A DNA stretch of 64,000 nt. Source: Thiobacillus denitrificans. Lineage in GTDB: Bacteria; Pseudomonadota; Gammaproteobacteria; Burkholderiales; Thiobacillaceae. Below are positions 27,440-45,742 of this stretch, in pieces. The stretch lies in assembly GCA_020723405.1 (NCBI GenBank), contig DYIY01000007.1, positions 124,001-188,000 of the forward strand, written 5' to 3'. Numbering within the stretch: position 1 is the stretch's first letter; each line of letters starts with the position of its first letter. Under the pieces are notes generated by a model. The model ran no database searches. It was not told the DNA's origin and worked only from the letters and a program-made list of their open reading frames with translations. The translations under genes were made by a program, and so were the position numbers.

Positions 27440-27463
27440 AAAAAAGCCGGCCTCAGCCGGCTT
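27440..27463 (-). terminator. Intrinsic terminator of the alpha operon (after rplQ)
   Basis: Arms AAGCCGGC (27444-27451) and GCCGGCTT (27456-27463) with a 4-base loop, then TTTTTT on the minus strand. It lies 19 bases past the rplQ stop. Confidence 0.92.
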
Positions 27464-34194: not shown

Positions 34195-34590
34195 TCAAGC
34201 CACGATACACAGGACTTCACCGCCCACACCCAGTGAACGGGCCTTGCGGTCGGTCATGACGCCGCGGGAGGTGGAGACGATGGCAACGCCCAAACCATTC
34301 ATCACGCGGGGCAGATCATCGCGACCTTTGTAGATGCGCAGACCGGGCTTGCTGATACGCTCGATCCTCTCGATGACCGGGCGGCCGGCGTAGTACTTCA
34401 GCGCCACTTCCATCTCGGGCAGTCCGGCGTTTTCCCGGACCACATAACCGTCGATGTAACCCTCGTCCTGCAAGACCTGGGCGATGGCTTTTTTCAGCTT
34501 GGACGCGGGCATGCGCACAGAGACCTTCTCGGTCATTTGCGCGTTGCGGATGCGCGTCAGCATGTCGGAAATGGGATCACTCATGCTCAT
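34195..34590 (-). CDS. rpsH: 30S ribosomal protein S8
   Basis: Central-domain 16S rRNA-binding protein, and in Escherichia coli the repressor of the spc operon. The 131 residues have [15 protein letters not shown] at the start and the C-terminal [20 protein letters not shown] signature. The start is ATG 34590 or the ATG two codons later. Twelve bases after rpsN. Confidence 0.97.
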
Positions 34591-34915: not shown

Positions 34916-35455
34916 TCAATTCTTGAAAGGGAACTTGAACGCCGCCAGAAGGGCCTTGGCCTCTTCATCGGAGCCGGCGGTCGTGGTGATGGTGATGTTC
35001 ATGCCGCGCAGAGCATCGATCTTCTCGTATTCGATCTCCGGGAAGATGATCTGTTCGCGCACGCCCATGTTGTAGTTGCCACGGCCATCGAACCCCTTGC
35101 CACCGATGCCACGGAAGTCGCGGATGCGGGGAATGGCGATGGTGATCAGGCGATCCAGGAATTCGTACATCTGCTCCCGGCGCAGGGTGACCATGCAGCC
35201 CACGGGGTAGTGATCACGAATCTTGAAACCGGCGATGGATTTGCGGGACAGAGTCACCACGGGTTTCTGACCGGCTATTTTGGTCATGTCGCCCACAGCG
35301 TGTTCCATCACCTTCTTGTCGCCCACCGCCTCACCGACACCCATGTTGAGGGTAATCTTGGTGATCCGGGGGACTTCCATCGGAGACTTGTATCCGAACC
35401 GATCAGTCAATTGCTTGACCACGGTATCCTTGTAGAAATCATGCATACGCGCCAT
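34916..35455 (-). CDS. rplE: 50S ribosomal protein L5
   Basis: Binds 5S rRNA and contacts S13 in the intersubunit bridge. ATG 35455 ([20 protein letters not shown]) gives the normal 179 residues, with [20 protein letters not shown] and [19 protein letters not shown]-type stretches. Ten bases after rplX. Confidence 0.98.
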
Positions 35456-35790: not shown

Positions 35791-36159
35791 TTACAGCACT
35801 TCAGGCGCCAGCGAGACGATCTTCATGAATCGCTCGGTGCGCAGTTCGCGGGTGACAGGCCCGAAGATGCGGGTACCGATGGGCTCAAGCTTGTTGTTGA
35901 GCAGCACGGCCGCGTTCTTGTCGAACCGGATCAGGGAACCGTCGGCGCGGCGGACGCCCTTGGCGGTTCGCACCACGACGGCGTTGTATACATCGCCCTT
36001 CTTGACGCGGCCCCGGGGGGCGGCATCCTTGATACTGACCTTGATGATGTCGCCAACGCCGGCATAACGGCGCTTGGAACCACCCAACACCTTGATGCAC
36101 ATGACAGTGCGAGCGCCGGTGTTGTCGGCCACGTCCAACATGGATTGCATCTGGATCAT
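35791..36159 (-). CDS. rplN: 50S ribosomal protein L14
   Basis: Large-subunit protein at an intersubunit bridge. ATG 36159 ([20 protein letters not shown]) gives the standard 122 residues ending [18 protein letters not shown]. It is the first spc gene after a 157-base spacer that holds a promoter and a strong terminator. AGAGAAAAC precedes the start. Confidence 0.98.
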
Positions 36160-36217
36160 GTTTTCTCTCCAACTTGCCAGCTCTGGAGCCGGCAGTTTTG
36201 GATCCCGTTCGGGTTGA

Positions 36218-36233
36218 GCGCGCCGGAGCGCGC
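36218..36233. other. GC-rich hairpin downstream of the spc terminator
   Basis: GCGCGC, CGGA, GCGCGC lies a few bases past the U tract of the terminator at 36239-36265 on the minus strand. It could compete with or stabilise that terminator; there is no U tail of its own. Confidence 0.4.
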
Positions 36234-36238
36234 CATTC

Positions 36239-36265
36239 AAAAAAACCGATCGGGAAACCCGATCG
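36239..36265 (-). terminator. Strong intrinsic terminator between rpsQ and rplN
   Basis: Arms CGATCGGG (36247-36254) and CCCGATCG (36258-36265), 3-base loop, followed on the minus strand by G and TTTTTTT. It splits the ribosomal protein cluster between the S10 part and the spc part, so downstream genes need readthrough, antitermination or another promoter. Confidence 0.88.
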
Positions 36266-36279
36266 CTGAAAAGCTGGAG

Positions 36280-36309
36280 ATTATGCCAGCCCTTACATCA
36301 ACTGCGCAA
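36280..36309 (-). promoter_or_regulatory. Candidate promoter in the rpsQ-rplN spacer
   Basis: On the minus strand TTGCGC (36304-36309), 18 bases, CATAAT (36280-36285). The predicted start (about 36273) is immediately before the terminator hairpin. Confidence 0.5.
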
Positions 36310-36316
36310 GTCTTTT

Positions 36317-36601
36317 TTAGACCAGGCGAGCCTTTTCCACCAGTCGGGTCACCTTCCAGGTCTTGGTCCGGGAAAGGGGCCGGCATTCCTCGATCACCAC
36401 AACGTCGCCGGGATGGAATTCGTTGTTCTCATCGTGGGCGTGGTATTTCTTGGACAGGCGGATGATCTTGCCGTAAAGGGGGTGCTTGACCTTGCGTTCC
36501 ACCAGCACGGTGACGGTCTTGTTCATCTTGTCGCTGACCACGGTGCCGGTCAGGGCGCGGACGATCTTTTCGCTTTGCATTTCGCTCATGATGCTGCTCA
36601 T
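36317..36601 (-). CDS. rpsQ: 30S ribosomal protein S17
   Basis: 16S rRNA-binding primary assembly protein. The 94 residues include [20 protein letters not shown] and [20 protein letters not shown]. Its ATG overlaps the rpmC stop by one base (TGATG); an internal ATG seven codons later is a possible alternative start. Last gene before the terminator-containing spacer. Confidence 0.97.
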
Positions 36602-41400: not shown

Positions 41401-41428
41401 GAAAGGGCGGGATTATACCCGCCCTTTC
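41401..41428. terminator. Hairpin between tuf and rpsJ with a promoter -10 as loop
   Basis: An 11-bp perfect stem (GAAAGGGCGGG and its complement) encloses ATTATA. On the minus strand the tail is CTGTTTC, so termination would be partial. It separates the str transcript from rpsJ. Confidence 0.5.
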
Positions 41429-41441
41429 AAAAATTAATCAA
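41412..41441 (-). promoter_or_regulatory. S10 operon promoter
   Basis: On the minus strand TTGATT (41436-41441), 18 bases, TATAAT (41412-41417). The -10 is perfect and lies exactly in the hairpin loop. The transcript would start in the descending stem arm near 41405, about 22 bases before the rpsJ ATG. Confidence 0.65.
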
Positions 41442-41445
41442 GCGT

Positions 41446-42636
<1,191 letters not shown>

Positions 42637-45630: not shown

Positions 45631-45669
45631 TTAACGCTTTCCCAGCTTAATCATTGACTTGAAGAAATT

Positions 45670-45694
45670 GGCCCGCGTATACGCCACGCGGGCC
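45670..45694 (-). other. Hairpin in the rpsL leader
   Basis: GGCCCGCGT and ACGCGGGCC (9-bp arms, 7-base loop) lie downstream of the str promoter start point and 40 bases before rpsL. On the minus strand the tail is AATTTCTTC, weak for termination, so a leader control element is as likely. Confidence 0.5.
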
Positions 45695-45699
45695 ACCTT

Positions 45700-45735
45700 A
45701 AAAAAGACTGCGGATTCTATGAGTGACAGGCAGTC
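45700..45735 (-). terminator. Possible rpoC terminator overlapping the str promoter
   Basis: GACTGC and GCAGTC (45706-45711, 45730-45735) with an 18-base loop, followed on the minus strand by TTTTTT (45700-45705). The stem is short, so confidence is modest. Confidence 0.4.
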
Positions 45736-45738
45736 CTG

Positions 45739-45742
<4 letters not shown>
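45714..45742 (-). promoter_or_regulatory. str operon promoter
   Basis: On the minus strand a perfect -35 TTGACA (45737-45742), 17 bases, then TAGAAT (45714-45719). The TGA inside the -35 hexamer is the rpoC stop codon. Confidence 0.8.

Follow-up and report, generated by a model that had tools for sequence, protein, structure and literature searches.

A candidate S8 operator in the rplN leader, downstream of a terminator-like hairpin, at the S10–spc junction of Thiobacillus denitrificans

The junction between the S10 and spc genes

The stretch of DNA analysed here (hereafter the window, 64,000 nt of a Thiobacillus denitrificans contig) contains a cluster of ribosomal protein genes on its minus strand. 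Two of them, rpsQ (uS17; 36317..36601, an open reading frame also used as tblastn query) and rplN (uL14; 35791..36159), are the closing gene of the S10 group and the opening gene of the spc group, respectively. They are separated by 157 nt, as judged from the sequence, the list of open reading frames and tblastn with rpsQ, with the end of rpsQ at 36317 and the ATG of rplN at 36159. Further along lie rplE (uL5; 34916..35455) and rpsH (uS8; 34195..34590), the latter in the same gene run as rplN and encoding a regular uS8, with matches to uS8 chains at E values down to 3.7e-49. The junction is best explained as the point where the S10 group gives way to the spc group.

Directly behind rpsQ the minus strand carries a −35-like TTGCGC (36304..36309; alternatively TGCGCA with a spacer of 17) and, after 18 nt, a −10-like CATAAT (36280..36285), the two boxes that an earlier note on this DNA had pointed out; the −10 is extended by TGG upstream. 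Transcription from this pair would start near 36273. By itself the promoter is weak, with 8 of 12 matches, and it is unlisted in a scan with a threshold of 9; it is accepted because similar pairs are conserved behind rpsQ in betaproteobacteria. At least 9 of 12 matches were found in 89 of 144 distinct betaproteobacterial junctions, compared with about 10% of shuffled controls, the −35 element begins with TTG in 86%, and the −10 element lies a median of 70 nt upstream of the leader motif described below. This conservation supports the earlier proposal of a separate promoter for the spc genes, and the element is most likely the sigma-70-type promoter of the spc operon.

The −10 element also sits inside the loop of an inverted repeat, AAGGGCTGG / CCAGCTTTT (36269..36294, minus strand; −10.4 kcal/mol in a fold of 36262-36296), whose arms AAGGGCUGG/CCAGCUUUU can pair only in RNA that reads through from rpsQ. 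Inverted repeats around the −10 element with a score of at least 8 occur in 29 of 141 relatives against 6% of controls. Being enriched and not universal, they led us to reject the idea of a universal design with the promoter inside a terminator. Three junctions (L099, L131 and L137) have TATAAT as the exact loop of a strong hairpin that is followed by a T-run (GAAGCCGG-TATAAT-CCGGCTTC-TTTTTT), and in these the putative promoter is inside the predicted S10 terminator. Elsewhere in the window, a promoter match TTGATT-N18-TATAAT (41412-41441, minus strand) is located between an EF-Tu-like reading frame of 396 amino acids (41446-42636) and rpsJ.

Downstream of the promoter there is a terminator-like hairpin with eight pairs and a loop of 3 nt, followed by a G and seven T (36239..36265, minus strand). 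The hairpin, CGATCGGG-TTT-CCCGATCG, occupies 36265-36247 and the T-run 36245-36239, again as the earlier note had read them. It combines the G + C-rich stem and the U-run of a rho-independent terminator, and may stop transcription in the cell. The fold has a free energy of −13.4 kcal/mol (z −4.4), and none of 5000 dinucleotide shuffles of the 157-nt junction yielded a stem of at least eight pairs with at least six GC pairs and at least seven T in eight. In the stricter of two scans this hairpin is the best terminator site of the window; the sole other hairpin in that scan with at least six T in eight (6 T; 27444-27463, minus strand) lies downstream of rpoA. The looser scan found 19 terminator-like sites in the region against 18.7 expected, that is, no excess. 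With the promoter so close upstream, an RNA of 35-40 bases is a possible product. The rpsL group is preceded by a strong promoter match (TTGACA-N17-TAGAAT; window 45669-45742, minus strand), and here too a hairpin, of 11 pairs, follows directly, so 5′ hairpins may be common behind promoters of ribosomal protein genes in this DNA.

The idea that the junction of rpsQ and rplN normally has no punctuation needs correction. The earlier note held that ribosomal protein clusters usually run through this point without a terminator; in E. coli K-12, however, a T-run hairpin in this gap is followed by a TATAAT promoter, which we take to be the mapped Pspc, and by a second short hairpin after that. Both junctions combine a promoter with a terminator-like hairpin in the rpsQ-rplN gap. 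This likeness, together with the inverted repeat around the −10 element that forms in read-through RNA alone, here and in the relatives counted above, favours ordinary punctuation, in which the S10 transcript ends rho-independently at the hairpin and transcription from the upstream promoter passes it often enough to supply the spc genes. We give this explanation about an even chance. The order differs, however. The E. coli terminator lies ahead of the promoter, and the leader there lacks the S8 core described below; in the window the terminator follows the promoter and would cut spc transcripts too. Punctuation also accounts for the terminator and not for the conserved leader, and it is therefore compatible with the explanation preferred here for the leader. 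The most likely role of the hairpin and its T7 is that of a partial stop for S10 read-through which also takes a toll of early spc transcripts.

Conservation in relatives, a check proposed in the earlier note, gave different answers for the two elements. The promoter is conserved, but the hairpin with T7 is not. A terminator-like hairpin between promoter and leader is present in 16 of the 144 betaproteobacterial junctions (15 besides the window), at least six T follow it in five, and seven T in the window alone. At the corresponding position, the relatives L003 and L005 carry a hairpin with T in only five of eight places. The hairpin with T7 thus looks like a private, lineage-specific addition, separate from the leader. 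The five T of these two relatives, along with the draft state of the assembly (42 contigs, in which the 16S gene was not detected), would also fit a homopolymer error of sequencing or assembly in the T7, or neutral drift of a stabilizing 5′ hairpin. We consider this unlikely, and with one or two T changed the site would still be a good terminator-like sequence.

The earlier note had also suggested that the terminator might be regulated by antitermination. In such an attenuator, some factor would decide the passage of spc transcripts. A strong hairpin and U-tract 8-34 nt past the expected start are what an attenuator would need, and the weaker hairpins after the promoter in the 15 other junctions point the same way. 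Against it, the long T-run is not common to the genus; the single minimum free energy (MFE) fold of 36180-36316 (137 nt) retains the terminator hairpin with no competing antiterminator seen in it; and the conserved element lies downstream of the hairpin. A protein bound at that conserved site cannot act on the terminator, because the terminator has already been passed, which also rules out a terminator controlled by S8. We regard regulated attenuation as improbable. The broader notion that the spc genes have their own switch survives in spirit, with a different element as its likely seat: an S8-type site at 36168-36202 in place of the terminator.

A candidate S8 operator at the start of rplN

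The proposed uS8 operator (36168..36202, minus strand) begins 36 nt beyond the T7, outside the interval flagged at first (36239-36309), and lies at the translation start of rplN. It was recognized from its motif, alignment and folds, using the definition of the S8 core in the available text of PMC4176348: A595-(A596-U644) and (G597-C643)-N641, with A642 invariant. When junctions are compared side by side, the leader adjoining rplN reads CCCGAACGGG-ATCCAA-N-ACTG...AAGTTGGAG. In the window, A197 A196 C195 U194 face A175 A174 G173, corresponding to N641 A642 C643 U644 and A595 A596 G597, with position 641 free. The core is flanked by an outer helix, UCCAA/UUGGA, and an inner helix, GCCGGCU/AGCUGGC, and the MFE fold has a 3/2 internal loop between helices of five and eight pairs. 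In the MFE folds U644 pairs with A595, and C643 and G597 remain unpaired; the core pairing given here is therefore drawn from S8 structures and not predicted. The Shine-Dalgarno sequence of rplN, GGAG (36167..36170, minus strand), overlaps the 3′ strand of the outer helix. A small conserved hairpin, CCC-GAAC-GGG (36204..36213, minus strand), lies just upstream; 90.5% of its cells in the alignment are paired, and it is absent in some lineages. Judged by its letters and helices, the rplN leader looks like a candidate docking site for S8.

Two known S8 sites provide comparisons. In helix 21 of 16S rRNA, A595 A596 G597 likewise stand opposite N641 A642 C643 U644 with helices on both sides (the letters of E. 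coli helix 21 were checked, 5375/5426 genomes), but the site in the window mRNA is circularly permuted, with the ACU strand first. The order does agree with that of the E. coli operator at rplE, which we located by hand from the numbering of PMC4176348. E. coli K-12 rplE starts with ATGGCGAAACTGCATGA and later has TCATGCAAGTCC, placing U at +11 and A at +80 and +81 in agreement with that numbering; its operator has AACUGC at +8..+13 and GCAAGU at +78..+83. The leader in the window has AACUGC...GGCAAGU (CCAAAACTGCCGGCT...AGCTGGCAAGTTGG) in the same order and register. The two sites also share an inner helix adjoining the core and a place within the operon that encodes S8. The outer helix of the E. 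coli site has just two pairs, and scoring that demands at least three outer pairs misses it.

The position within the operon is different. In E. coli the operator falls within the early coding sequence of the third gene, rplE. The site in the window belongs to the leader of rplN, the first gene, and its 3′ strand includes the Shine-Dalgarno sequence. The window's own rplE starts with ATGGCGCGTATGCATGA, lacking ACU and so the AACUG half of the E. coli operator; an E. coli-type S8 site is absent there. Among betaproteobacterial rplE starts, 173 of 179 lack the E. coli ACT/AAG letter pair (letters only, duplicates included). An S8-like core before rplE in one family (f168: L261, L262 and L272) was rejected, being within the end of rplX; it is taken for coding sequence for that reason, and a further member of the family (L264) shows a repeated coding pattern.

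The leader might instead be an autoregulatory site for uL14, uL24, uL5 or a complex, with a coincidental likeness to the S8 core. Its location before rplN would fit, since leaders of ribosomal protein operons often serve the first gene. Set against this, every specific letter of the S8 core occurs on the right strand, position 641 is as free as it is in S8 sites, and S8 is established as the repressor of the spc operon in E. coli (PMC10931766, in its available text). We regard control by another ribosomal protein as rather improbable, and continue with S8 as the preferred ligand.

No family of Rfam 15 reached its gathering score at the junction or at that of ten relatives. In general kind the leader resembles the ribosomal leaders in Rfam 15 and PMC7247131, structured 5′ leaders of ribosomal protein operons; in the accessible text of PMC7247131, 'S8' and 'spc operon' appear in the reference list only and 'uL14' is absent. 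A resemblance to the small RNA ncS54 (RF02871) was discarded, with 18.2 bits against a gathering score of 43 bits and a location elsewhere in Burkholderia (chr1 1179680 in B. cenocepacia, according to the available part of PMC5688073). A literature search of limited coverage found no S8 site before rplN.

Distribution and covariation of the leader motif

The strict motif CAA-N-ACT...AAGTTG is present in 174 of 178 distinct betaproteobacterial rplN leaders, compared with 5 of 8900 mononucleotide shuffles. It is found in none of 88 non-beta proteobacterial leaders (8 from the first set, 40 of the same class and 40 of the same phylum), many of which have gaps below 50 nt, too short to hold it. 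Of the four betaproteobacterial exceptions, L028 has the motif further upstream, beyond the 250-nt limit, and L145, L166 and L167, from the same order (families f16 and f41), have rplN without an S8 motif. A script check of leaders with CCAA and AAGTTG found ACT rightly placed after a CCAA in 173 of 173. Position 641 is A in 100, G in 54 and T in 13 of 167 leaders, as the free N641 permits.

These counts depend on how the genomes were drawn. From 240 matching genomes we read those with loci, along with 30 hand-picked families of weak matches; for family f4 we read 32 of 60 matching genomes. Five loci in which no rplN was found (L037, L047, L058, L072 and L108), the two copies of the window (L001 and L002) and leaders sharing an identical last 90 nt were excluded. 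The label 'beta' denotes assignment to the same order together with record titles; one locus titled Streptomycetaceae (L104) was kept on sequence grounds. The eight first-set loci counted as non-beta are titled alpha- or gammaproteobacteria, the 40 class regions comprise 39 from the class draw and one from the phylum draw, and the 40 phylum regions come from 86 matching genomes of the same phylum.

A structure descriptor with penalties scored at least 6 in 143 of the 178 betaproteobacterial leaders (35 fell below) and in 5.3% of shuffles; at a score of at least 9 the figures were 82 of 178 and 0.8%. Covariation in the inner helix follows two registers, contiguous in 68 leaders and offset in 99 (94 of the latter long enough to count). 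In the contiguous register, pairs 2-6 are paired in 53-63 of 68 leaders with up to seven letter pairs, a level reached by none of 500 shuffles; these counts are inflated because the register was picked per sequence for best pairing. When a single register is imposed, only 69.6% of the cells of the inner helix are paired; shifting by one column (+1) then gives an equally good score (0.154 vs 0.147), because the two registers are mixed. The outer helix CCAA/UUGG is near-invariant (167, 167, 167 and 165 of 167 identical) and, being hardly variable, gains almost no support from covariation. Searched with model R1, the own genome gave a single strong match (E 9.1e-15; next best E 2.2).

The motif also stays with rplN where the gene order differs. 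In families f4 and f49 it still precedes rplN, and in most of these loci a search of about 1500 nt upstream revealed no rpsQ; the motif is therefore part of the spc operon and not of the end of S10. In seven loci from sphingomonads and their kin (L093, L100, L101, L102, L109, L275 and L276), rplN is preceded by a variant S8 core, GGAACTGCCGG...CCGGCAAGCC, with another outer helix. This variant is missing from L251, which belongs with L275 and L276 to one family.

A model for S8 control of the spc operon

Taken with the computed core, its flanking helices, its conservation among betaproteobacteria, its uniqueness in the own genome and the absence of an E. coli-type site at rplE here, the comparisons above point to the following scheme. 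A sigma-70-type promoter behind rpsQ would start spc transcription, and the spc leader would end in an S8 operator with an internal loop that mimics the S8-recognition core of helix 21 of 16S rRNA. S8, made from rpsH, the fifth gene of the operon, would bind this hairpin once in excess of free 16S rRNA and hold the Shine-Dalgarno sequence of rplN shut, so that rplN translation stops. Through coupling and mRNA decay, this stop would then lower the whole operon. We are fairly confident in the overall arrangement, namely an spc promoter and an S8 operator in the rplN leader through which S8 represses spc at rplN, with the T7 hairpin separate and beyond S8 control. The binding, repression and mRNA decay at the rplN leader are inferred steps of this scheme. 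S8 autoregulation is already known; what appears to be new here is the place, the rplN leader, and the spread through the clade.

This arrangement may shed light on a published regulatory mutation. The available text of PMC7742992 describes a Bordetella pertussis strain, JN1, in which a G located 18 nt before rplN has spontaneously mutated to T. In JN1 the mRNA from rplN to rpsD was raised 2.1-3.2 fold for ribosomal protein genes, the rise in L14 protein was not significant, and proteins S4, S5, S11, S13 and L18 fell; its authors state that the mechanism remains to be determined. The operon is the same as that in the window, but the available part of PMC7742992 proposes neither a leader structure nor S8.

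Among our loci, G597 lies at −18 from rplN in 25 of 32 leaders of family f4, a family of many genera with 0.8-Mb genomes among them and presumably Alcaligenaceae, and in 6 of 8 loci of family f8. The same 25 f4 leaders, and no others of the 32, have G at −18; the remaining seven have T or A. By extension from these relatives, the base changed in JN1 would be G597 of the rplN-leader motif. Breaking the G597-C643 pair should weaken S8 binding and so derepress the operon; the protein levels in JN1 given above speak against this reading.

It seems reasonably likely that control of spc by S8 is older and wider than the site at rplE, with a clade-wide rplN operator in betaproteobacteria, one with different helices in sphingomonads, an operator that moved or arose anew between lineages, and JN1 as a natural operator-constitutive mutant at G597. 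If so, the rplN operator would answer, for betaproteobacteria, a question that the available text of PMC10931766 calls unknown and phylogenetically not advanced. It would also supply a mechanism for a published mutation whose effect extends to rpoA and thereby to global expression, and the single base G597 would be a testable point. A predicted B. pertussis small RNA (3,838,293-3,838,561) ends about 120 nt before rplN, according to the same part of PMC7742992.
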